Source: a virus
Virus record (IMG/VR): IMGVR_UViG_3300000116_000083
Coordinates: 1-34,701 of that record
Length of the DNA stretch: 34,701 nucleotides
Strand: one strand, 5' to 3'
The stretch's first letter is position 1. Every line of letters begins with the position of its first letter. The notes under the pieces are model-generated. The model did not search any database and was not told the origin of the DNA. It worked only from the letters and a program-made list of their open reading frames with translations. Shown here piece by piece: positions 363 to 33,812 of this stretch. The translations under genes were made by a program, and so were the position numbers.

Positions 363-1028
363 ATGGCAAAGGAAAATAGCTTATTGCTGGGTCATATAGA
401 ATTGACAACAAAACAAAAGGAGTTTTACGACATCATGACAGATGACAAAACAAGAATTGTATTTGTGGGGGGTCCAGCGGGTACCGCTAAGACGTTTTTG
501 TCGGTTTATAGTGCATTAGATTTATATAATACAGATAAGAGTTTGAAGATATTATATTTGCGGAGTGTGGTTGAGAGTGCGGATAGGGGGATAGGTTTTC
601 TGAAAGGAGACATGGATGATAAGTTTGGGCCATATATGGCACCCCTTTTAGATAAGATTGATGAATTATTAAATAAGCCTGAAAAAGACCAATTAAAAAA
701 CAAGAAGGTACTTGAAGCAGAGCCGATTAACTTTCTGCGTGGATGTACGTGGAGGGAAAAGATAGTTATTGTGGATGAAGCTCAGAATATGAGTGTGAGA
801 GAATTGACTACTGTGCTTACAAGGATAGGCCGAGGAAGTAAGTTATTTATATGCGGGGATAGTTTGCAAAGTGATATTAGGAATAGTGGGTTTGATAAGT
901 TATATTCTTTGTTTGAAGATGAGGTTAGTTCCAAAAAAGGAGTGTATAGTGTATCTTTTGATAAGACTGATGTCGTAAGAGATAAAATAATTAGTTATCT
1001 TGTAGAAAAAATTGAAAAAATAGGTTAA
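363..1028 (+). CDS. phoH: PhoH-like ATPase
   Basis: This is a P-loop NTPase of the PhoH family. It has a Walker A motif GGPAGTAKT at residues 36-44, a Walker B motif IVIVDEAQN at 134-142, a GDSLQSD segment at about 165-171 and a DVVRDKII stretch near 203-210, in the usual PhoH order. The 221-residue length suits the phage members, which lack extra RNA-binding domains. PhoH-like genes are common in marine phages, but their role is unsettled; RNA metabolism or phosphate-stress functions have been proposed. It heads the rightward gene series and is 8 nt from the next gene. There is no Shine-Dalgarno sequence before the ATG. The family call is secure; the biological role is not. Confidence 0.9.
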   Translation: MAKENSLLLGHIELTTKQKEFYDIMTDDKTRIVFVGGPAGTAKTFLSVYSALDLYNTDKSLKILYLRSVVESADRGIGFLKGDMDDKFGPYMAPLLDKIDELLNKPEKDQLKNKKVLEAEPINFLRGCTWREKIVIVDEAQNMSVRELTTVLTRIGRGSKLFICGDSLQSDIRNSGFDKLYSLFEDEVSSKKGVYSVSFDKTDVVRDKIISYLVEKIEKIG

Positions 1029-1036
1029 TATTTACC

Positions 1037-1411
1037 ATGAACAAAGTTTTTTGTGTATCTTGTGGATTCAAGAATTCGTATGAGGTGACGAAGCCGAAGT
1101 TTTGTGCGAACTGCGGTACGCCTATCTCTGGTGGAGTTAGGCCGAAAGAGTTGGCTCAAGAAGAAGTTGAGGATGAATCTGAAGTTTCTAGTTTGGCGAG
1201 TTTAGATTTAAGGAAGTTGCGTCGAGATATTGTCGCTGAAGCTAATACACAAAAGACAACACTAACTGATTTATGGAAATCTGCTTCTGAATCTGATGCG
1301 GTTCAAGAAGAGTATAAGAGAAATGCTCCTAATCTTCCAGAAGGTGATGCTTTACTAAAACAAACTCAAGCTGACTGTGCCTCTTCTAGGCCCACAGAAA
1401 TAGATGGATAA
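1037..1411 (+). CDS. Small zinc-ribbon protein
   Basis: A 124-residue protein whose first 30 residues form a zinc ribbon: C6-x2-C9, then C23-x2-C26 (FCANCGTPI). The rest is acidic and then polar and helical, with no other domain I recognise. It overlaps the sigma-like gene by 8 nt, which suggests co-translation and possibly a joint role in transcription. A zinc ribbon followed by an acidic tail could bind nucleic acid or RNA polymerase, but that is inference. The start ATG follows the previous stop by 8 nt and is the only sensible one. Confidence 0.7.
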   Translation: MNKVFCVSCGFKNSYEVTKPKFCANCGTPISGGVRPKELAQEEVEDESEVSSLASLDLRKLRRDIVAEANTQKTTLTDLWKSASESDAVQEEYKRNAPNLPEGDALLKQTQADCASSRPTEIDG

Positions 1412-2081
1412 GGAATATGAAGACCTTATTCCAGAGATAGAGCAAGTACTCGCTAAATATAGAGCTAAATGGCAGCTAAATGCATTAACATGGTTAGACT
1501 ATGATGATGTTTGTCAGATCATAAGGCTACATATTTATAATAAGCTTCATTTGTGGGATCAAAAAAGGGCATTTAAACCTTGGGCTAGTGTTTTGATATC
1601 TAATCAGATAAAGAATCTGATAAGGAATCATTATAGTAACTTTGCTAAACCTTGTTTGCAATGTCCTCATTATTCTGGGGGTTTAGATTGTAGTATGACT
1701 AAAAGCGGGGTTCAAGATGTTAGTTGTTCTTTGTTTGCTAATTGGCGTAAGAAGAAAGAGAATGCATATAATTTGAAGTTACCATTATCATTGGATACAT
1801 CTATTTTTGTTTATGACAACTTGTACGATGAGAATGTTGATTATGATAGAAAAGTGGCAAAGATACATCAGTTGGTTTTGAAGGAATTGAGTGAGAAGCA
1901 TAAGATAATATATACAATGTTATTTATTGAGAACGCTACTGATGAAGAGGTTGCAAAGAGATTCGGGTTTAAGAAGGATACAAGTAAGAGGAAGACTCCC
2001 CGATACAAACAAATAAACAACTTAAAGAAGAAATTTTACTTGATAGCCCAAAAAGTAATTAAAAAGGACGATTTAACATGA
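1404..2081 (+). CDS. Phage RNA polymerase sigma factor with a four-Cys insert
   Basis: This is a 225-residue sigma-70-superfamily protein. Residues about 30-78 match sigma region 2: DYDDVCQIIRLHIYNKLHLWD, then FKPWASVLISNQIKNLIRN, which corresponds to the -10-binding helix. Residues about 158-220 look like region 4, with EEVAKRFGF and RYKQINNLKKKF forming an HTH-like pair. Between them lies a likely metal-binding insert with Cys at 84, 87, 96 and 108. Such factors redirect host polymerase to phage promoters, as T4 gp55 does at late promoters. Its likely target in this genome is the recurring GTGTAAT motif upstream of structural genes; that link is inferred. It overlaps its neighbours by 8 nt and by ATGA. 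Confidence 0.75.
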   Translation: MDKEYEDLIPEIEQVLAKYRAKWQLNALTWLDYDDVCQIIRLHIYNKLHLWDQKRAFKPWASVLISNQIKNLIRNHYSNFAKPCLQCPHYSGGLDCSMTKSGVQDVSCSLFANWRKKKENAYNLKLPLSLDTSIFVYDNLYDENVDYDRKVAKIHQLVLKELSEKHKIIYTMLFIENATDEEVAKRFGFKKDTSKRKTPRYKQINNLKKKFYLIAQKVIKKDDLT

Positions 2082-3139
2082 ACAACTTTAAACTATCAGA
2101 AGAGCAGGAGAAGCAGATTTTAAAAGAGTTCAAAAAGAACCCTGACTTGATGTCTATCACCCGAAAAGTATTTAAAGACGAGAATATTGACGGTAGGTCT
2201 AAACAGGGGAGAGCGGTGAGGGCTTTCCTAGCAAAACAGAATAGAGACTATAACACTTCTCTAGTTCCCAAAGCAGATAACCTAGAACTGACCAAAGAAC
2301 AGAAGTCCTTTCTTATGAGTGATAATATCCATTCGGATATGAATGCTTTAGAGGTCGCCCGATTAACTTTTAAGGATAGAGATGTCGCAAGCCTTAGCAT
2401 TAAACATAGGTTGATTGTAGATTTTCTCAAGACGTATCGCCCTGAAGTAGTTGATGACAACGAGATTATAACAAAAGAGAAATGGATAGCCCCAAAAGCT
2501 TTATCTCGCGTTATTTCTAAAGTGAATGCTTTTTGCGGTACTTCTTTCGAAGAATCAACGATTCAAAACAAACAAAAGAAATTGATGGATCAACTAATGA
2601 TCTATCTTCGTAGTCCTAGGTTTAATCACTTTGTTAATCAGTACTCGACTTTAGCAGACAGAGACCTTTTCGAAAGCGAGTTCGTTAGGGCTATTTGGGA
2701 CAAGCCTGACCTCACTAATGACGAGTTGAACCTGTACGTGACCGTGTGTACCAACTACGTGCGCCAAAAACACATCCAGCAGCGTATTGACAAGCTTAAC
2801 GCACTACTAGACGACCAAGACAACGAAAGAGACATTACAATGCGTCTGACGGAGATTATCAAGGCTACTAGCGATGAACTCAATCAATGCGAAAAAAGGA
2901 TCGAGTCTCTTACAAAAGACTTGAATGGTTCTAGAACTGCAAGGCTCAAGGCCAAGGGAGAAGAAAATGGATCTATCTTTGCTTTAGTGGAAGCCTTTCA
3001 AGAAAGAGAAGAACGTGATCGAATGATCATGATGGCAGAACTCCAGAACAAACTTATTGAAGAGGAAGCTGATAGACTTGAAAGCATGGATGATTACAAG
3101 GCTAGAATCCTAGGCATTTCTAAAAAAGAACTATTATGA
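2078..3139 (+). CDS. Protein with two HTH-like repeats and a coiled coil (candidate small terminase)
   Basis: A 353-residue protein I cannot assign by family. Residues about 6-51 and 71-117 look like two copies of one helical unit: L-S/T-x-E-Q..., then an I/V-x-R-x-x-FKD segment, then a closing helix ending in FL. The middle (about 125-235) is helical. Residues about 236-340 are highly charged and read as a coiled coil. Tandem HTH-like units plus a coiled coil, two genes upstream of the large terminase, would suit a DNA-recognising small terminase, although 353 residues is long for that role. A GC-richer patch lies at about 2690-2830. It has an AAGGA-like sequence about 10 nt before its ATG, which is rare in this window. 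It is joined by ATGA overlaps on both sides. Confidence 0.55.
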   Translation: MNNFKLSEEQEKQILKEFKKNPDLMSITRKVFKDENIDGRSKQGRAVRAFLAKQNRDYNTSLVPKADNLELTKEQKSFLMSDNIHSDMNALEVARLTFKDRDVASLSIKHRLIVDFLKTYRPEVVDDNEIITKEKWIAPKALSRVISKVNAFCGTSFEESTIQNKQKKLMDQLMIYLRSPRFNHFVNQYSTLADRDLFESEFVRAIWDKPDLTNDELNLYVTVCTNYVRQKHIQQRIDKLNALLDDQDNERDITMRLTEIIKATSDELNQCEKRIESLTKDLNGSRTARLKAKGEENGSIFALVEAFQEREERDRMIMMAELQNKLIEEEADRLESMDDYKARILGISKKELL

Positions 3140-4089
3140 GTGATTTTACCTGTAAAGAATGTGGGAAGGAGTTCGACAATAGGAAAAGCTTTCATATGCA
3201 CCTGAAAGCACACTCTTTGTTTATTGGAGACTATTATGTAAAGCATTTTCAGAAAAAAGATTTGTACACTGGTTCTTTACTCCCTTTTAAGAATTATGAC
3301 CAATACTTCCGAGAAGATTTCTCTTGCAAGGAAAATTATCTTAATTGGCTTAAAATCACACCTTCGGAGACCTGCAAAGAATATGTTGAAAACAAAGCTA
3401 AATCTAAATTCTCAGACAAGAAGATAACTATATCTCCTCCTAATTTATTTTATCAATTATCGGACATGGCCGATATTCAAACCTATAGGAAGTTATGGGG
3501 GTCTTATTCTAATTTCACAAAAGAACTGAATCTAAAAAACCAGTTTTGCAGAAACCTCCCAAAAACCTTTTGGGAATCCTCCCACGAGGATATCTCTATT
3601 TTCGTAGACACAAGGGAAAAGCTGCCCTTTACTTTTAAGAACGGCTTAGTAAACAAGTTAGACTTTGGCGACTATACTGCTGGAGGAGAACATTATTCAA
3701 AAACATTCATAGATAGAAAATCACAAGATGACTTCAGGCAAACATTTGGCAAAGATATTAAAAGATTCAGGAGGGAAATGGATCGTTGTGTCCAGTTTAA
3801 TTCTTACATGTTCATTGTTGTCGAGTCTTCTATTGAAAAAATCGAAGAAGACAACAAAATATCGAAGTTTAAATCGAACCTAGGTTATGTATGGCATAAT
3901 TTGAGGGGTCTTATGGCAGACTACCCAGAAAACATACAATTCATATTCGCCTACAATAGGAAAGGCGCTAAAAAGCTAATACCCAAAATCCTTTATTATG
4001 GTCAGGATTTGTGGGAGGTTGATTTACAGTACCATATAGACAATAAAGTTTATGGCTTGGAGCAAAGGAAAACAGAGATATCGCACTGA
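3136..4089 (+). CDS. C2H2 zinc-finger / ERCC4-type nuclease
   Basis: A 317-residue protein in two parts. Residues 6-26 form a classical C2H2 finger (C6, C9, H22, H26). Residues about 150-270 are an ERCC4 (XPF/Mus81-type) nuclease core: VDTREKLPF with D158 and E161, LDFGDY with D179, and the signature DRKSQDDF with D193-R194-K195. ERCC4 nucleases cut branched DNA near junctions. The gene sits directly before the large terminase, which starts inside its last 38 nt. A role in resolving branched replication products before packaging is plausible, but that is inference. Nothing suggests truncation. The catalytic residues are intact. Confidence 0.85.
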   Translation: MSDFTCKECGKEFDNRKSFHMHLKAHSLFIGDYYVKHFQKKDLYTGSLLPFKNYDQYFREDFSCKENYLNWLKITPSETCKEYVENKAKSKFSDKKITISPPNLFYQLSDMADIQTYRKLWGSYSNFTKELNLKNQFCRNLPKTFWESSHEDISIFVDTREKLPFTFKNGLVNKLDFGDYTAGGEHYSKTFIDRKSQDDFRQTFGKDIKRFRREMDRCVQFNSYMFIVVESSIEKIEEDNKISKFKSNLGYVWHNLRGLMADYPENIQFIFAYNRKGAKKLIPKILYYGQDLWEVDLQYHIDNKVYGLEQRKTEISH

Positions 4090-17760: not shown

Positions 17761-20700
17761 ATGGCTGCTCCTATCCAATTAAACGCTAACCTCAACTTAA
17801 ACCCTGCTAGTATCAATGCTTCTGCGAGGCAGGTACAACAAGCTTTGGGTAGAATTACAGGCCAAGCCTCTGAATTTCAAAAGTCTCTTGATGCCTCTAC
17901 AGCGCGTGTGTTCGCTTTTGGAGCTACTACTGCAGTTATTGCTGGAGTTGGTACGGCTTTCAAAAGGCTTATTAGTACAACTATAACTGTACAAGACGAG
18001 CTTATTAAGATTAATGCTATTCTTGGAGCTAGTGCAAAAGACTTTGGGGCATTTAGAGATGCAGTTTTTAATGCCGCTAAAGCTACTGGGCAATCTTTTC
18101 AAACTGTTGCGGCTGGAGCGGGAGAATTAGCCCGTCAAGGTTTGAACGCAGCTGAGACTTCTAAAAGATTAGAGGCTGCTATGATTTTGACAAGGGTATC
18201 TGGCTTAGGTGCAGAACAGTCTGTTAAAGCCCTCACTGCTGCTATAAATGGATTTCAATCTGCTGGGTTGACTGCCGTTGACGTAACCAATAGGTTGGTT
18301 GCTGTTGACACAAGATTCGCTGTTTCGGCTCAAGATCTCGCAGACGGTTTTAGCCGAGCGGGTTCTACTGCTGAAGATGCTGGAGTTAGTTTTAACGAAT
18401 TACTTGGGTTAATTACTGCGGTAGAACAAAAAACAGCACGAGGAGGAGCTGTTATAGGTAACGCATTTAAATCTATCTTCACAAGATTGAGTAGAGGTAA
18501 AACGATTGACCAATTACAACAGCTTGGGGTAGAAATAGATGCTTCTCAAAGTGGAGTTCAAAAATTAGAAGCTCTTTCAAACGCTCTTGCAAAAATATCT
18601 GATCCTACAAAGGCAAGCGCAATTAAAGAGTTAGCTGGTGGAGTTTTCCAAATCAACGTTGTCAGCGCAGCTTTAAAAGATTTGTCCTCTGAAACTTCTA
18701 TATTCGCCAAAGCTACAGATGCAGCCGCAAACGCTGGAAATGATGGTTTTGAAAGAAATGCTGAATTGAGTAAGTCCTTGGCTTCTCAAATTAATTTACT
18801 AGTTGTTTCTGTTACTGACTTTGCAGAAAAAGTTGGATCTATTACATTTGGCCCTTTGCTTGAAGATCTTATCTCAGTAGCCTCAAAAGCTTCTGATGTT
18901 TTAGGAAATGCGTTGGAAGCTGATACAATAGGCGGAAAATTTATATCAGGTTTCTTTAAAGTTGTAGGCAAATTTATAGCAGGTCCAGGGTTAGTTTTGA
19001 TAACAAAAGCATTCTTTAATATATTTAGAATGGTTACTAAGTTCGCTGCAGAGGGATTTAAATCTGTTATGGCTATGGGATCTCAAGCTGAGAAAATAAA
19101 AAGCATTGAAAGTGGCATCGTAGATCTACTTGGCAAAGATGAAAAATTAAGAACCATCTTAAATAGCAAGACTGCCACACAAGCCCAAAAAGAACAGGCC
19201 GTAATTAGTGCTATTAAAACGGAGAATCAATTATTGGTACAGCAACAACAAATTTTAACAAACATAGCTAATGTAGCTGCCCGAAGAGGTGTTTCTGGGT
19301 ATGGTGCTGGCAAAGGATTTACGGGGAAGGGTGGGAAAAAGTTCGCTGCAGGGTTTAGGCAAGAAGAGGCTACAGCCATGATGTTAGGAGCTTCTCCTGA
19401 TGTATCAGCTCATTATGGAAAAGGTACGATTGGTGGCAAGCGTTTTATAATGAATAGCCAAGAGAAGGAGATACCTAACTTTGGTAGCAACGGAGATTCT
19501 GCTGTTATTCCTATGTACGCTAGAGGTTATGCAAGGGGTAGACCTCGTAAAATTAAACAATTAAATGCTGATCAAAGATATGGGATGATAGTAGCTGAGT
19601 CTGGTTCAAAGACAGCTCAAGATTTCTTTATTTCACAAACTTCCAGAGGTATTTCTGCCACGAAAGGGGCTGGAGATAACAGTGTAGCTAAGGTAACCGT
19701 CCCGACCTATAGATTGAATAATTCTAAGGCAAAGGGGGGGATGAATAAACATAGGAATAGTTTGGTACGTAAATATACAGATTTATTTACAAGCGACTCT
19801 ATAACTATGGCAAAGATGATCTCAGGAGGAGAGATGCCTGATCCAGTCAGGGCAAAAGATATTAAAAAGACCTTAAATGCGGGGTCTGCTAAGTCTTCTA
19901 TCGGTTCTGTTTTTGAAAGTGGTGTCGGAGCATTATTATCGACTGATGATTTTAAAGATTTTCAAAATAGAGCTGCAGGGTCTCTTATGGATTTTAAGGG
20001 CAATTCTCTAACAAATTTAAAGGGGGGAGTAAACCCATTTAACATCCCCCCTTCAACAGAAGGTATAGAGGCTAAACATTCATCTAGTCTAGCTGGAGGA
20101 GCAGCTGAAAAAATATATAAAATACTTGGTGCGCCCGTAACTGCAGCTGAAAAAAGGGACAAGATAAAGCCTAGCGAACGTGAAGGCAGGAGAGCCTTTC
20201 AGCAAAAGGCAATAAAGCGAAAGGGTAAAGCTGCAGGTCATATGCCTAGGTACGCCGCAGGTACTACAAATGTTAATTCCAGAATTCATCGGATGAAGCG
20301 TTCACAGTTAGGCCAGCGCTTTGGTGCTGCTTCTGCTAGTAGTCAAAAATTCATGCAAACTGAGGGAGGGGGTTTTAAAATGATGGGACTAGGAATGGCT
20401 CTATCTGCAGCTTCATCTGGCTTAGACTCTCTTGCCGCAAGCTCTAGAGAAGCAGGAAATACAAATACGGCTTTGGCCGCTAGCACAGGTTCTGCTGCAA
20501 TGCAAACAGCTTCTATGGGAGCAATGTTTGGTCCACTGGGAGCAGCTATAGGAGGAGCCGTCGGTGCTCTTGGTGGCCTCGCAATGGCTGTTCTTGAGCA
20601 GCGAGAAGCAATGCATCAGGCAGAAGCATCTCTTGAAAATACGCAGGAGGTAATGGCTAATAGACAGAGGGGTCGAGGAAGAGAAAGAGCAGCTAGAGAA

Positions 20701-21978
20701 GAATTTGGTTTTGTTAGTGGTGATAGCATCTTTAAAGAAGCTCAAAAGCAAACTAAAGCTGGAATGTCAGATAGAACTAAAGACATAACAAGACTCCAGA
20801 CAATCTTAAATACTTCTGAAAGCATACAAGAGCTAGATGACGCAAGCGATCAATTGATAAAGGTGTACGAAGAGGTTGGTAAAGCGATGTCTATTAGGCG
20901 GAATATAGAAGATCTTAAGAAATCTATAGATGCAACGACAAAAAAACTTAAAAGTATTCAACTTGCCGCTGGAGAAAAAATTTCTAAATTCCAAAGCGAT
21001 ATCTTCAATCAACAAGTAATGAATACAGCTGGCTCTACTTTACTTGGTTCTATGCAAGGTCCACAAGCAGCAAGTTTGCAAAGACAGTTATCCACAAACT
21101 CAGACATCCTTGGTGTTTCGAGTGCTCAAGCAGGGCTGCAACAAGCTAAAGTGGATGAATCTAATTTAGTAGTAGGATCTGAAGAGCAGATTAAAGCTGC
21201 TCAGGCGACGCGAAAAGCTGCTGATTCATTTAAGGCTAAAATTGTTGCTGCTGCAACGAACATGCAAGTTAGAATGAATGCTATTAACGAACGTGCAGAA
21301 GCGATTAAGGATGAAGGCGAGAGGAATAGGATGGAGATGGTACGTAATTCTTTCTCTGGCTTGGCTTCATCATTTACTAGTGGAAAATTTGACATAGGAA
21401 ACGCGATAGGAGTAGGAAAACGGATTGCTGCAGAAAGAGACCCACAACGCAAAGCCCAAATGGCTGCGGAATTAGAAGCTGAAATGGATGCAAAAGGAGT
21501 GGCACAAGCAGTAAAAGATATTGTTCTCAAAGCTTCAGGGGTATCTTCGAAAAGCATGGCAGATGCGACGATGACGAATCAATTTGAAAATGTTCCAAAA
21601 AATCTTAGAGGTGAGATAAGAGGCACATTTAATAAAGAAGGGAGAGACAAACAAAAAGCATTAGATGAAGAGGCTGAGGTCTTTAGAAAAGAACTTGGAT
21701 CTGTAAGGGCTAAATTTAAAAAGTTAAATGACAACTTTGATGTTGATGGTGTGGTCTCTAGTGTTGGGCGTCTTAACAAAAATCTAATTGATGCTGGTAA
21801 TAATATGAGTGCTTTTGCCAACGCTACAGGTTCAATAACCTCTGTTGCTTCAAAAGTTACAAAGGCAACAACTGACATCAGTGTTCTTACAGATATGAAT
21901 ATATTAGTTATAGACAAATTAAAAACTAGAATTGAAACTCTTGAGGGTGAGCTTGAATCGATAAAACCAAAAGAATAA
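17761..21978 (+). CDS. Tail tape measure protein with an embedded nuclease-like domain
   Basis: A 1405-residue protein, by far the longest here. Residues about 70-320 match the TP901-type tape-measure core (FRDAVFNAAKATGQSFQTVA, then SVKALTAAINGF and GNAFKSIFTRLSRG). Hydrophobic stretches at about 874-892 and 919-946 (rich in G, A, L) suit membrane-interacting parts, and the last 400 residues are helical coiled-coil. Residues about 570-835 differ: they are basic and mixed, and contain a PD-(D/E)XK-like set, GSVFE (E719), SLMDF (D744) and GIEAKHS (E770-x-K772). This stretch lies between IPMYARG (583-589) and MPRYAAG (828-834). The tape measure sets tail length and is ejected with the DNA; at about 1.5 angstrom per residue the helical part could span 150-210 nm. 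The nuclease reading is inference. Confidence 0.92.
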   Translation: MAAPIQLNANLNLNPASINASARQVQQALGRITGQASEFQKSLDASTARVFAFGATTAVIAGVGTAFKRLISTTITVQDELIKINAILGASAKDFGAFRDAVFNAAKATGQSFQTVAAGAGELARQGLNAAETSKRLEAAMILTRVSGLGAEQSVKALTAAINGFQSAGLTAVDVTNRLVAVDTRFAVSAQDLADGFSRAGSTAEDAGVSFNELLGLITAVEQKTARGGAVIGNAFKSIFTRLSRGKTIDQLQQLGVEIDASQSGVQKLEALSNALAKISDPTKASAIKELAGGVFQINVVSAALKDLSSETSIFAKATDAAANAGNDGFERNAELSKSLASQINLLVVSVTDFAEKVGSITFGPLLEDLISVASKASDVLGNALEADTIGGKFISGFFKVVGKFIAGPGLVLITKAFFNIFRMVTKFAAEGFKSVMAMGSQAEKIKSIESGIVDLLGKDEKLRTILNSKTATQAQKEQAVISAIKTENQLLVQQQQILTNIANVAARRGVSGYGAGKGFTGKGGKKFAAGFRQEEATAMMLGASPDVSAHYGKGTIGGKRFIMNSQEKEIPNFGSNGDSAVIPMYARGYARGRPRKIKQLNADQRYGMIVAESGSKTAQDFFISQTSRGISATKGAGDNSVAKVTVPTYRLNNSKAKGGMNKHRNSLVRKYTDLFTSDSITMAKMISGGEMPDPVRAKDIKKTLNAGSAKSSIGSVFESGVGALLSTDDFKDFQNRAAGSLMDFKGNSLTNLKGGVNPFNIPPSTEGIEAKHSSSLAGGAAEKIYKILGAPVTAAEKRDKIKPSEREGRRAFQQKAIKRKGKAAGHMPRYAAGTTNVNSRIHRMKRSQLGQRFGAASASSQKFMQTEGGGFKMMGLGMALSAASSGLDSLAASSREAGNTNTALAASTGSAAMQTASMGAMFGPLGAAIGGAVGALGGLAMAVLEQREAMHQAEASLENTQEVMANRQRGRGRERAAREEFGFVSGDSIFKEAQKQTKAGMSDRTKDITRLQTILNTSESIQELDDASDQLIKVYEEVGKAMSIRRNIEDLKKSIDATTKKLKSIQLAAGEKISKFQSDIFNQQVMNTAGSTLLGSMQGPQAASLQRQLSTNSDILGVSSAQAGLQQAKVDESNLVVGSEEQIKAAQATRKAADSFKAKIVAAATNMQVRMNAINERAEAIKDEGERNRMEMVRNSFSGLASSFTSGKFDIGNAIGVGKRIAAERDPQRKAQMAAELEAEMDAKGVAQAVKDIVLKASGVSSKSMADATMTNQFENVPKNLRGEIRGTFNKEGRDKQKALDEEAEVFRKELGSVRAKFKKLNDNFDVDGVVSSVGRLNKNLIDAGNNMSAFANATGSITSVASKVTKATTDISVLTDMNILVIDKLKTRIETLEGELESIKPKE

Positions 21979-29635: not shown

Positions 29636-30400
29636 TTTTTTAACAAGAACCAAGAGCTTTCGACATTCTTTTGCAGGAATATCGGAGAAAGAATCCCAGT
29701 TCTTTATCTCTTCGTTTCTATACTGTTCTTGCTTCCAGAAGTCGCGTAGGACCGTCTTAAAGTTATCAAAGGAGTCTGACCCAGTTTTCTCTCTTGCGGC
29801 CTTCTCAAGCATAGCTGATGGCGTTAAAGCCACATTTGTAGATTCAGCAGAGTCATACTCAAAAGATTTAGCATTATTTGCCCCTTTTGACTTGTCGATT
29901 TCGTCCGCTCCTACAATATGTACATTTAAGAAATTTCTCACACACCTTACAAAAGCCCTGTTACAGGCTATAGTCTCCAAGAATTTGGAAGCGAAAGAGC
30001 TTGTATTGTCTAATGTGGCATTTGCTGAGTCTTCATATGTGATAGAAGCATTATCACTCTCGTAATTAGATAGCCACTCTATGGTACAACTTGCTTTGAC
30101 GTATCCATTCGATACATTTTCAGTATTAAATTTTACAGACTTAAACCCTCTTAGCTTTGCTAAAGATTTAATCCCTCCTAACATAATCAAGAGCTGATTG
30201 TCTTTTAGACCTTCTATTGATTCTGGAACGGGCTTCTTTCTGTACTCAAACCAATCTTTGTTTGGATACAGGTACTCGTCTTTGATCATGGATCTCCAAT
30301 CTACAGACCCATCTTCATTAAATACATATGAAGCATTTTCAAGAAGACCATGTTGATTTCTCTTATACAGGTCTGGGCCGTAAATATTATTCTTGCTCAT
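29630..30400 (-). CDS. Possible Rad52-like ssDNA-annealing protein
   Basis: A 256-residue protein, last gene of the minus-strand operon. The central part has strands followed by a helix SKFLETIACNRAFVRCVRNFL and LNVHIVGADEID (about residues 137-168), a strand-helix-strand order with A-x-x-R-A-x-x-R that resembles the core of Rad52/ERF-type annealing proteins. Other features are a charged N-terminus and a helical C-terminus (about 190-256). Co-location with an SSB-like gene supports a recombination or replication role. The similarity is only by eye, so the assignment is tentative. It overlaps its upstream neighbour by 14 nt and ends 6 nt inside the convergent hub gene. Confidence 0.4.
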   Translation of the reverse strand: MSKNNIYGPDLYKRNQHGLLENASYVFNEDGSVDWRSMIKDEYLYPNKDWFEYRKKPVPESIEGLKDNQLLIMLGGIKSLAKLRGFKSVKFNTENVSNGYVKASCTIEWLSNYESDNASITYEDSANATLDNTSSFASKFLETIACNRAFVRCVRNFLNVHIVGADEIDKSKGANNAKSFEYDSAESTNVALTPSAMLEKAAREKTGSDSFDNFKTVLRDFWKQEQYRNEEIKNWDSFSDIPAKECRKLLVLVKKL

Positions 30401-31505
30401 GAGCTAAATGATAGACAAACATATTCTGTAAGTCAAGGTAAAAATCATCTAAATCTTCGTTATTGTTTGCTGCGTAGTGACTAGCGTAGCTCTTTTTATT
30501 TTTAATCACTTTTTTATAGCTTGAATAACTAAAATCTTCTAGTTCTATGATTTTTTTGTTTTCTTCTATTCTTTTTGAAGTGTTGTATGTCGTAATAGAC
30601 TGGTCGAAATATTTTACTCTTTCGTCGCTTATATTCTCTTCGTCAGTGCAGAGTAAATCGAATTTCTTGCCATACTTAATTAACTTGTTTACAAAATCTT
30701 CATTAAAGGATTTTGAGATGTATGCTATACGCTGTATGTTTTTATTACATAGCAGGGACTCATCTATTGGTTCCTGACAGATGATAGAGCAAACATTGTT
30801 TTCAATCAAACCTTTGGCATTATCTTCATTATGCTCTATATCAAGTCGGATGCAAATACTATCTTCTTTTAAGTCGTAGGGATGATCTGGGATTACATCT
30901 ATAATTTTTTTCTTGTATAGACGCCCGATGAACAAAGTTTTAATATTTACCCCTTTAAAACCCAATTGATTTAGTACAGAGTTCGCTATTTCTTCAGGCT
31001 CGATCTTGTTTATTTTTTTATCCGATTCTTTTGTAGAGAATGATGGTTTATCTCCATCTCTATGAGATTCTATTAGAGTAATGTTTTCTTTGTCTCCCCA
31101 TAGTGGATCACAGGTTCTTGCATAAGTGTGTGCGTATATTGCTACAATAGGTTTATTAAGTAAAGACGCTATATGCACAGGAGAACTATCGATGCCCATA
31201 TGAAGTAAACCATTTTGGATAATGTAAGCAGACTGCTTTATAGAATTGGTTTCGATGAAATCGTCTGTATTTTGAACCTTTGGCTCTTTGCCACTGCCAA
31301 TTTGTAAAATTTTTAATTTAGGAGCAGACTTTTTTATCATTGTTATAACCTCTTCCCAATAATCATATTGTTTCGATTGTACATAATCGTCTGTATGCAA
31401 AGTTATATAATTGGTGTGGGTTATTGGAAAAAAATGAGGTTTAAAAACTGGATTCCCAATCCTAACTCCTAAATCTTTCGCATATACTTCTGCTAAGTGG
31501 CTCAT
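30387..31505 (-). CDS. GT9 C-terminal half plus unknown domain
   Basis: A 372-residue protein starting at an ATGA overlap with the upstream GT4 gene. Residues 1-190 match the second half of a GT9 (ADP-heptose LPS heptosyltransferase-like) fold: HLAEVYAKDLGV at the start, and LHMGIDSSPVHIASLLNKPIVAIYAHT at 101-127, the nucleotide-sugar-binding signature. The first Rossmann half is not here but at the C-terminus of the upstream protein, so the two probably act together. Residues about 190-372 form a separate alpha/beta domain (GRLYKKKIIDVIPDHPYDL, IICQEPIDESLL) that I do not recognise. The acceptor could be modified phage DNA, virion protein or host surface glycan; the sequence does not decide. 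Confidence 0.7.
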   Translation of the reverse strand: MSHLAEVYAKDLGVRIGNPVFKPHFFPITHTNYITLHTDDYVQSKQYDYWEEVITMIKKSAPKLKILQIGSGKEPKVQNTDDFIETNSIKQSAYIIQNGLLHMGIDSSPVHIASLLNKPIVAIYAHTYARTCDPLWGDKENITLIESHRDGDKPSFSTKESDKKINKIEPEEIANSVLNQLGFKGVNIKTLFIGRLYKKKIIDVIPDHPYDLKEDSICIRLDIEHNEDNAKGLIENNVCSIICQEPIDESLLCNKNIQRIAYISKSFNEDFVNKLIKYGKKFDLLCTDEENISDERVKYFDQSITTYNTSKRIEENKKIIELEDFSYSSYKKVIKNKKSYASHYAANNNEDLDDFYLDLQNMFVYHLAHEQE

Positions 31506-33229
31506 CGTAATTTAAATTGATTTTTATCTTTAGCGTTGTGGATATATGTGTGTGTTTTTTGAGTCATGACATTCGGGAAAAAAGCCATGTCGAAAAATCC
31601 TTTGTGATTACGAGAGCCTTCTAAGAAGTAATGAGATTCTATTTTAGGGTCATATGGAAGTAATTTGTAAACATTTGGATTGTCATTAATAAAATCAAAA
31701 AACTTAGGATTGGTAAACATATATATTTTTTTACTTGGATAGAGGTTCTTGAGATTTTCCATCAAAGAATTTATCATTAGTACATCTCCTCCTGATTCAG
31801 GCATTACAACTGCGATCCTATCTTCCAAAGGTACATCCTCTAAAATTTTAGTTAGGCTATTTTTATTGGACTTTTCTTCTTTTAGAGGTGCCTCTTCTTT
31901 CAATTTAATCCCACCACTCTTCTTGCGTTTTAAATCTCGCAATATGCTTATCAATTTTGAAACAGTATACTGTACTGAGAATTTATCTTTAACATAATTT
32001 CTACCTGATTTAATCAAGATGTCTTTTTGCTCTTGAGGCATTTTAAGCACTTTGGTTAAATTCTCATTAATGCTATCTGGACATGTTGTAGCTTTGATAA
32101 ATTGAGTGCTAGGTTCCCTGTACTCGTTCCAAGCCAAGGGAATCCCACCTTGATGTTCGTAGGCTGAATCAGTACCACAGGAATAATCCGTCACTAAAGT
32201 TATTAGACCTGCTGCCTTAGCTTCTTGAATTGGTAGTTCTTGTCCTCCACTTGTAAAAGGGTGGCAGTATACATCCATAAGGTTGTATATTTCATTAAGC
32301 TCCTGCTCTCTTACACCTCTGGCGCTATTTTTTGTTTTAACACATTTTTTACCTCCACACGAAGGGCAGTCTTTTTCTTCCCCGTCATATCCTCTTATAG
32401 AATAGGTATCGCATTTATGGCAGACATAAGTTGCTAGAACTTCAGATTTATCAAAGCCTTTCTCTTTGACATATCTTGGGATGTCCCAACCCATTTTTTT
32501 CTCTCCCCAATCCGTATGTAGAAGAAGCTTGGCAGTTACATCTGGATTGTTTTTTTTAAATCTTTTAAATCCTTCTAGTAAGTTTGGTACTGATTTTCTT
32601 AGTTGATTCTTGAATACAAAACCAACAACAAAATCACCACCAAGGCCGTGAAAATTTCGTAACTCATCTCTATTTTCTAAAGGTTTAAAATGGCTATAGT
32701 CAACTGCTCCATGCAAAGTCTCTACTTTAGGATGACCTAATTTATGCATAGCCTCCTCTGCGAAAGAGGCCCAAACAAGCATCTTGTCGCACTTAGGCTC
32801 CATTTTAATGGCTTGGTCTAAAATAGGTAGACTATCTAAGGTTGTCCATAAAACTTTTACAGTATCATTCCACCATTCTTTTGATTCGAATTGTGTAAAT
32901 GCCCAAATATCTTCTATCCCTAAATAGATGTCAGGCTTGGTTTTTTTTACAATTTCGTCTATACAATAATAACCATATTGAGCTGCTCTTTTTTTAGAAG
33001 CATCTTTTTCTATAGTGTTTAAAATATGAGGATCTACAGGATAAGTTCCATAACTTTTCCAAGGTGTACGGAGATCTGAGTTAAAACGCGCTCCATTAGA
33101 AGCTTCTATGACTTCTATATCGGGGTTAGAGTGCAGTGCTAAGAGTATATTTTTAGCATTTTTTCCAAATCCAGTTACCATTCTACTATAATTAGAATGG
33201 ACTAAAACCCTCAACTTAGAATGGGACAT
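31502..33229 (-). CDS. GT4 glycosyltransferase with zinc ribbon and GT9 N-terminal half
   Basis: A 575-residue protein from the ATG at 33229. Residues 1-435 form a two-domain GT4 (GT-B fold) enzyme: RVLVHSNYSRMVTGFGKN at the N-terminus, VVGFVFKNQLRKSVPNLLEGF at about 201-221 and FTSGGQELPIQEAKAAGLITLV at about 325-345, the donor-binding loop. The first Glu of the usual EX7E is replaced, as in some phage enzymes. A zinc ribbon (C270, C273, C288, C291) is inserted in the second domain. Residues about 471-575 start a second domain: IAVVMPESGGDVLMINSLMENL resembles the N-terminal Rossmann half of GT9 enzymes. A longer frame opens at 33343, but it overlaps the SSB-like gene by 128 nt; this start overlaps by only 14 nt. 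Confidence 0.8.
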   Translation of the reverse strand: MSHSKLRVLVHSNYSRMVTGFGKNAKNILLALHSNPDIEVIEASNGARFNSDLRTPWKSYGTYPVDPHILNTIEKDASKKRAAQYGYYCIDEIVKKTKPDIYLGIEDIWAFTQFESKEWWNDTVKVLWTTLDSLPILDQAIKMEPKCDKMLVWASFAEEAMHKLGHPKVETLHGAVDYSHFKPLENRDELRNFHGLGGDFVVGFVFKNQLRKSVPNLLEGFKRFKKNNPDVTAKLLLHTDWGEKKMGWDIPRYVKEKGFDKSEVLATYVCHKCDTYSIRGYDGEEKDCPSCGGKKCVKTKNSARGVREQELNEIYNLMDVYCHPFTSGGQELPIQEAKAAGLITLVTDYSCGTDSAYEHQGGIPLAWNEYREPSTQFIKATTCPDSINENLTKVLKMPQEQKDILIKSGRNYVKDKFSVQYTVSKLISILRDLKRKKSGGIKLKEEAPLKEEKSNKNSLTKILEDVPLEDRIAVVMPESGGDVLMINSLMENLKNLYPSKKIYMFTNPKFFDFINDNPNVYKLLPYDPKIESHYFLEGSRNHKGFFDMAFFPNVMTQKTHTYIHNAKDKNQFKLR

Positions 33230-33812
33230 CGTCTTCTTCTGGCTCTTCTTTGTATTGTTTTTTAGGAGGATTGTTTTGAGATTGAGGAGATTGATATTGT
33301 TTTTTGGAATCATCCCTCTTGTAGGCATTTGAGTTAAACTCAAAAACTTTTCCGATATAAGCTTTAAGTAATTCGGAAAGAGCTTCTGCTTCTCCCCCTT
33401 CTATAGGGAGTTGGAATAGTTGAGAGGAGTTTTTGCTCACGCTTAGACCCCAAGCTGGGGTTGTGTAAAAGCTATCCTCGCCTTTCTCTTTAACTTTTCT
33501 TTTTTTATCCCAAGGATTTAGCTTGATGATTGTACTAGAGTCTTCACGTTTGTGGAAAGTCACATATGGGATTCTGATTTTAAATGAAGAAAGAAACTCG
33601 CCAGCTTCAGTTTCATTTAACATAATAGTAGCTGATTTTTCTGGATTCTTGGCGTTTTCTTTAAAAGAGCCATTTTTTGTAGAGTCATTCCAGCTATATT
33701 GTTGGATCATAGATACAAACAATACTGGTTTATTATTTCTATCGTTTGTTAGATCGAAGCTAAATGCAGACCCACTATTCTTGGAATTTGGTTTATACAG
33801 TGTATATTTCAT
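33216..33812 (-). CDS. SSB-like single-stranded DNA-binding protein
   Basis: A 198-residue protein, first of the minus-strand operon. It ends in a disordered Gln/Pro/Lys-rich linker (about 165-188) and an acidic tip EEPEEDDVPF, very like the DDDIPF-type tip of bacterial SSB that recruits replication proteins. The N-terminal 160 residues are beta-rich with aromatic residues (YTLYKPNSKNSGSAFSF, PVLFVSMIQQYSW, PYVTFHKRE), suitable for ssDNA binding, but they do not read as a standard OB-fold SSB; a Whirly-like or other fold is possible. Downstream are glycosyltransferases and a possible annealing protein. A minus-strand promoter candidate lies 30 nt upstream. Confidence 0.7.
   Translation of the reverse strand: MKYTLYKPNSKNSGSAFSFDLTNDRNNKPVLFVSMIQQYSWNDSTKNGSFKENAKNPEKSATIMLNETEAGEFLSSFKIRIPYVTFHKREDSSTIIKLNPWDKKRKVKEKGEDSFYTTPAWGLSVSKNSSQLFQLPIEGGEAEALSELLKAYIGKVFEFNSNAYKRDDSKKQYQSPQSQNNPPKKQYKEEPEEDDVPF

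Follow-up and report, generated by a model that had tools for sequence, protein, structure and literature searches.

The 34,701-nucleotide window analysed here is the whole of the IMG/VR virus record IMGVR_UViG_3300000116_000083 (37% GC), which is probably a fragment. Its largest open reading frame (ORF; 17761-21978, + strand) encodes 1405 amino acids and is identified from its sequence as a tape measure protein (TMP): residues 105-293 match PF10145 (E 8e-25), and the PHROG tape-measure families match the ORF with a best E of 2e-39. The middle of this TMP holds a nuclease-like domain, which is the subject of this study. The TMP and its parts are as follows, with the basis of each assignment in brackets.

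17761..21978 (+): tape measure protein, 1405 aa (PF10145 E 8e-25, PHROG families)
18073..18639 (+): PhageMin_Tail (PF10145) core, residues 105-293 (Pfam match)
18940..19002 (+): hydrophobic segment, residues 394-414, second strongest of the TMP (hydrophobicity)
19471..19485 (+): IPNFG, residues 571-575, within EIPNFGxNGDSAVIP, directly before the variable region (alignment)
19525..20262 (+): putative cargo region as modelled, residues 589-834, N-terminal beta part plus nuclease-like core (AlphaFold pLDDT 78.9, pTM 0.70)
19732..20262 (+): nuclease-like domain, residues 658-834 (profile made without the window, 40.2 bits, E 1.1e-12)
19903..19917 (+): GSVFE, residues 715-719, with G715 and the putative metal ligand E719, on a predicted helix (conservation, model)
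19990..19992 (+): D744, putative metal ligand, preceding a two-residue predicted strand (conservation, model)
20068..20076 (+): EAK, with E770 and K772, the (D/E)xK motif on the predicted strand 768-772 (conservation, model)
20110..20112 (+): K784, on the helix following the (D/E)xK strand (K/Q conservation)
20236..20256 (+): flank motif GHMPRYA, residues 826-832, local form of the relatives' G[YF][IV]PNFA (motif comparison)
20518..20595 (+): glycine-rich hydrophobic segment, residues 920-945, candidate membrane segment C-terminal of the domain (hydrophobicity)

The domain recurs in the tape measure proteins of related viruses

A first scan for relatives returned two near ones (loci L001 and L002; 86 and 91%) together with L003, whose TMP agrees with that of the window at 71% where the two align best and at 47% along the full alignment. 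The middle segment of L003 has a different sequence and the same signature, FE...GGDFDIKG...MDFKAS...FAKKIY. Scanning with the L003 TMP (six search peptides, one of which, MVKEKMEN, falls within the L003 domain) yielded 66 loci, some of them on contigs already found before (L008, L021 and L001). The domain is present in 60 of these, and the other six (L031, L042, L057, L059, L063 and L072) end at a contig edge before it; it lies in the TMP of every long-enough relative among the 66 loci. Further loci were added by scans with the domain alignment, using either FE and GGDFD or patterns upstream of the active site.

As all of these scans depend on exact short peptides, the numbers of relatives given here are minimum values, and failure to find one in a collection carries little weight. 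In genome contigs, for example, the domain-alignment scan returned no relative, a false negative, as it missed L123, which was recovered via its TMP N-terminus. L123, a TMP with the domain, and L124, which is cut off within the domain, come from genome-bin contigs labelled Flavobacteriaceae and Flavobacteriales; these bins give a weak hint of the host, since viral contigs can be misbinned. When 50,697 phage records were searched by tblastn with the L003 flank and domain and with the middles of L052, L030 and L120, nothing relevant was returned; the single match of one of these searches was a microvirus capsid protein (E 0.6).

Homology between the window and these relatives was established with a profile built from 48 relatives, leaving out the window, L001 and L002. 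In a set of 65 TMPs it matched residues 658-834 of the window TMP with E 1.1e-12 (40.2 bits), and an iterated profile, also made without the window, matched the window TMP at 38.2 bits (E 1.9e-10 among 2267 ORFs). The HMMER filters were off for the window matches, as the default filters drop the window sequence. With filters off, 117 ORFs match, representing 62 distinct sequences, whereas 4534 control ORFs, reversed or shuffled, produced nothing better than E 0.25. Apart from the two near relatives, the domains share 13-26% identity with that of the window.

Five conserved columns outline a putative active site

A sequence-only reading of the window had singled out E719, D744, E770 and K772 as close in order and spacing to the residues of PD-(D/E)XK nucleases, and its placement of GSVFE (715-719), MDF (743-745) and GIEAK (768-772) is correct. 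Across the 62 distinct sequences, weighted by relatedness (26 clusters at 50% identity) and with D counted as E, full conservation is limited to five columns out of 152: 715, 719, 744, 770 and 772. All four residues, named from one sequence before any alignment, are among them. G715 and D744 are kept in 62/62, and position 719 is E in 60 sequences and D in two. One sequence is truncated; in the remaining 61, position 770 is D in 49 and E in 12, K772 is kept throughout, and position 784 is K in 50 and Q in 11. These counts are taken from the profile alignment; the MAFFT alignment moves the window EAK by two residues. Each of the four sites is thus retained in every relative that reaches it. The seed relatives of the first profile had been cut at an FE-type anchor, which favours E719 among the seeds; D744, E770 and K772 played no part in the cutting. 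The 51 sequences made up of that of the window and those from the TMP-based scans (20.6 clusters, 155 columns) give the same five fully conserved columns.

The spacing from E to D is 18-28 residues across the relatives (median 21; 25 in the window) and that from D to (D/E)xK is 19-34 (median 26; 26 in the window). The set E, D and (D/E)xK occurs in this order in the 62 distinct sequences (61 for the last two residues), with D in place of the first E in two. PD-(D/E)XK enzymes usually have this succession of E, D and (D/E)xK, with K/Q following on another helix. Judged by this conservation, a PD-(D/E)XK-type active site in the window domain is well supported and likely, and we file the domain as PD-(D/E)XK-like, short of a proven member of the superfamily.

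The domain had also been described as lying in a basic segment between residues of about 570 and 835. Net charge per 100 residues is indeed +11 (501-600), +6 (601-700) and +14 (801-900), but only +2 at 701-800, so most of the charge lies to either side of the motif region.

Predicted structure

AlphaFold modelled window residues 589-834 from 52 sequences (pLDDT 78.9, pTM 0.70) and the relative L014 from 37 sequences (pLDDT 81.6, pTM 0.73). In the window model E719 sits on a helix, D744 directly before a two-residue strand, EAK on strand 768-772 and K784 on the next helix. The L014 model runs through helix 116-137 (bearing E131), D152 followed by strand 153-154, helix 159-168, strand 177-180 (bearing D179 of its DxK), helix 186-202 and strand 207-212, the last strand, which the window model lacks; it additionally has six N-terminal strands. 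A complete four-stranded core is not visible in the C-terminal half of either model. The extra N-terminal strands may complete the sheet, and the two models are compatible with a PD-(D/E)XK core without showing one.

Exchange of the domain and selection on it

The domain diverges fast. Among 61 TMPs, the median identity of the domain is 24% in the 435 pairs whose N-terminal bodies agree at 70-80%, and again 24% in the 72 pairs whose bodies agree at 80-95%. Above 95% (15 pairs) the median domain identity is 94%, with one pair as low as 29%. Some other pairs have a nearly identical domain with diverged sequence on both sides. Synonymous divergence (dS; values above 1 are near saturation) between L036 and L043 is 0.018 in the domain against 0.36 in the N-terminal body and 1.02 in the following part; between L050 and L053 it is 0.21 against 1.8 and 2.3. 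Because dS of the domain is so far below that of its flanks in both pairs, the domain, or a segment holding it, has been exchanged. In L090/L094, too, dS is lower in the domain than in the gene parts on either side of it.

In 14 hand-chosen close pairs the ratio of nonsynonymous to synonymous divergence (dN/dS) of the domain is 0.03-0.44. The domain is under purifying selection in these pairs. Its dN/dS is below that of the next 400 residues in 13/13 pairs and in none of the 14 falls below the value for the N-terminal body. Swapping combined with fast divergence suggests a conflict with hosts or rivals. A published survey found mosaicism in TMP sequences but was unable to confirm a recent genuine case (PMC10684548).

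Flanking motifs, hydrophobic segments and further modules

Motifs of the form G[YFHL][IVML]P[NRKS][FYL] occur 104 times in 54 TMPs, against 0.2 expected by shuffling. One lies near the C-side edge of the domain in 43 of the 54 and within the 220 residues before the domain in 29. The window has a single motif that fits the pattern, GHMPRY at 826; IPNFG at 571, present in L002 and L003 and absent from L001, resembles the pattern without fitting it. Our guess is that the G[YF][IV]PNFA-type motifs could be processing or hinge sites. The strings GYIPNFA, GFVPNFA and GYVPNFA were found in no paper of the open-licence collection searched.

The strongest hydrophobic peak of the TMP, residues 925-945, lies C-terminal of the domain and is rich in glycines, which L003 retains. 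In 49 of 55 TMPs the 400 residues that follow the domain contain a GxxxGxxxG, against 27 expected when the same stretch is shuffled. A glycine zipper has been reported as necessary for moving a toxic type VI secretion effector into target cells, in work that studied a DNase effector (PMC10240207).

Some TMPs of the group carry more than the one module. In that of L030 (2790 aa), the parts between such motifs include the nuclease-like domain, a P-loop module and a second FE...GPDIT...REAK stretch, among others; this second EAK stretch was seen only in L030. The P-loop module precedes the nuclease-like domain in L029 and L120/L121 and follows it in L108 and L030. Of seven middles compared with Pfam, two gave a weak AAA match for this module (E 0.013-0.016). 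The stretches concerned are L030:4411-8610, L029:7474-9423 and L120:3531-5480. The swapping, the flank motifs and the further modules go beyond what the sequence-only reading had seen.

A cargo nuclease and competing explanations

On balance, and as the simplest account, we lean towards the view that the TMP carries a cargo nuclease that is delivered into the infected cell and cuts DNA there. According to this proposal, the middle of the TMP would be an exchangeable cargo domain with a metal-dependent nuclease site of PD-(D/E)XK type (E719, D744, E770 and K772), built into the tail at assembly. On infection the TMP would leave the tail ahead of, or along with, the genome, its hydrophobic segments would enter the cell membrane, and the domain would be presented in or at the cytoplasm. 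There it could cut DNA other than the incoming genome, be it host chromosome, plasmid, prophage or rival phage. We infer the fold, the catalysis, the side of delivery and the substrate; that the domain would enter along with the DNA and act inside the host is proposed from the general behaviour of TMPs. For lambda, proximity labelling supports a position of the TMP at the inner membrane during genome entry (PMC13190303).

Several observations weigh against this proposal. The window model lacks the last strand of the core, and Foldseek found no PDB match at E <= 0.001 for either model. VIA comparisons with the PDB reached best Z values of 4.9 and 2.9 for the two models, none of them recognisably to a PD-(D/E)XK structure, and a Foldseek search of BFVD with the L014 model only gave no significant viral match. 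Two McrBC chains (6hz4) appeared at E 5.2-5.6 and probability 0.01, which is not significant. PD-(D/E)XK chains did not stand out in these fold searches, and a missing match there excludes nothing. Of the nuclease-like reading, then, the conservation of the four residues in relatives held up, while a structural match to the PD-(D/E)XK fold did not emerge. The window domain has no match in Pfam or PHROGs. Its relatives show scattered weak matches, in Pfam to ThaI (2/52, E 0.17) and DUF3810 (1/52, E 0.01), in PHROGs to phrog_32328 (1/52, E 0.0081) and in PADLOC, with 37 relatives, to Cas8b as the best (3/37, E 0.0024); NCBIfam (37 relatives) and PDB sequences likewise gave only scattered weak matches. 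Profile-profile comparison of the domain with Mrr_cat, UPF0102, VRR_NUC and PDDEXK_1 found no match at low power, as four of five known pairs were also missed and Mrr_cat/UPF0102 alone was recognised (82%). Its best probability was 0.95% (PDDEXK_1), against 0.55% for the reversed control there. The loci kept for it, with full 1500-base flanks and no stop, numbered 16/30 for Mrr_cat, 20/30 for UPF0102, 2/10 for VRR_NUC and 13/30 for PDDEXK_1, and 15/30 and 16/30 for the controls NUDIX and GNAT. There are also physical objections: it is doubtful that a tail tube has room for folded domains, and a nuclease ejected ahead of the genome would first meet the phage's own DNA. We know of no protection of the phage DNA from such a nuclease here, and no search for one was made.

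The swapping described above admits another explanation, in which the nuclease acts on the DNA of its own phage or on the TMP gene, either processing the genome at entry or tail joining or converting its own coding segment. Such gene conversion would itself explain the swapping, and nuclease-driven recombination at its own gene would give a similar picture of exchange and divergence. The clear segment exchange between some TMPs, and the median domain identity of 24% where bodies agree at 70-95%, fit this, and published work has dealt with nuclease genes that sit at boundaries of recombination (PMC10448857). However, the domain is in frame within the TMP, with no separate ORF, and is found in all long-enough relatives of the 66 loci, so that a fixed function suits it better than a selfish insertion; we regard action on own DNA as rather unlikely. 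A separate homing gene was considered and rejected, the domain being in frame without an ORF of its own. Also unlikely, in our estimate, is an enzyme whose nuclease-like acidic/lysine site serves another substrate, such as RNA, a nucleotide, or a non-nucleic phosphodiester or glycosidic bond. As neither model matched a known fold, the only pointers to the chemistry are four residues and the secondary structure predicted around them, and a P-loop module adjoins the domain in some TMPs, both of which leave room for such a substrate. Against it stands the order E, D and (D/E)xK with K/Q on the next helix, kept in 61/61 sequences with D at the first position in two.

As the domain sits in a structural protein, it might instead be an inactive fold that serves as a plug or spacer in the tail lumen or as a DNA binder, and the mosaic signal that TMP sequences often show need not mean real exchange of domains (PMC10684548). 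Filler would have no need to keep four charged residues while nearly all else changes, which makes this explanation very improbable. That the pattern arose by chance in a low-complexity tail protein was a fair concern while the claim rested on one sequence, as the sequence-only reading itself stated. Conservation in the relatives refutes it, and an independent profile match of E 1e-12 with controls at best at E 0.25, together with purifying selection, speaks against it; we consider its probability negligible.

A broader version of the cargo-nuclease proposal would make the TMP of this group a general delivery chassis, and we offer it tentatively, as something short of an even chance. A conserved tail ruler would hold slots marked by G[YF][IV]PNFA-type motifs, enzyme modules would be exchanged between phages, and each virion would deliver polymorphic effectors ahead of the genome, which would liken the group to a polymorphic-toxin or injection-system arsenal. 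The candidate modules seen are the PD-(D/E)XK-like nuclease, the P-loop kinase-like module and, in one protein, the second FE...D...EAK module.

Relation to known systems

The role of the TMP after it leaves the tail is an open question in the field. The interest of the present case lies in a catalytic-looking domain that is conserved across the TMPs of a whole virus group and swapped while the tail ruler stays. If the cargo-nuclease proposal is true, phage tails would be protein-delivery machines in ordinary infections, linking phages to injection systems such as the carrier of Tme.

In the open-licence literature searched, no TMP-borne PD-(D/E)XK domain was recognised. The closest case found in these searches is Tme, a TMP-related endonuclease effector of the contractile injection system of Streptomyces davawensis (PMC11126660), and it is a working precedent for effectors of that kind. 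Like the window TMP, Tme is tape-measure-like, with hydrophobic segments and a nuclease or nuclease-like domain in a tail-like machine. In contrast, Tme is an effector of an injection system, not of a phage, and its EndA-type DRGH domain is at the C-terminus, whereas the window domain is internal, bears the E/D/(D/E)xK signature and belongs to a TMP with no DRGH string.

The domain shares with the PD-(D/E)XK superfamily the succession of a predicted helix bearing E, a D, a strand at the (D/E)xK and a helix bearing K/Q; it differs in lacking a profile or structural match to the families tested. Enzyme domains in TMPs are likewise annotated in SPbeta-like phages, as transglycosylase or lysostaphin/glycyl-glycine endopeptidase. 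Their N-terminal parts are related to that of the window TMP, but their targets are, by annotation, in the cell wall, and the nuclease-like domain lies outside the shared part (among the best 30 of 88 matches). Polyvalent proteins (Iyer et al. 2017, as cited in PMC7824862) are large, multi-domain and thought to enter the host with the DNA, features that the window TMP would share; in the citing passages they are not described as tape measures.

Neighbouring genes and distant relatives

The window TMP matched 88 records of the phage collection. The best 30 of these cover at most 21% of the TMP, at 24-31% identity, and are confined to its residues 21-359. For both the terminase and the TMP, the phage collection holds distant relatives only, chiefly phages of Gram-positive hosts and including Bacillus phages and the SPbeta-like group. 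The neighbours of the TMP look like tail genes by reading only and have no PHROG match. Between 5988 and 29635 (+) lie 17 ORFs besides the TMP; for the 15 of them that were searched, PHROGs gave no match at E 0.001. By these comparisons, the window's head and tail proteins appear to be largely undescribed.

Several other genes of the window gave assignments. Directly upstream of the terminase gene, 3136-4089 (+) is matched by PHROG as an ERCC4-type nuclease (E 2.7e-9), and the N-terminus of its product looks zinc-finger-like by eye. The product of 363-1028 (+) is a PhoH-like ATPase by PHROG (E 4e-60), and 1404-2081 (+) weakly resembles RNA polymerase sigma factors (E 2.6e-4). Two ORFs at 30387-33343 (-) appear glycosyltransferase-like by eye.

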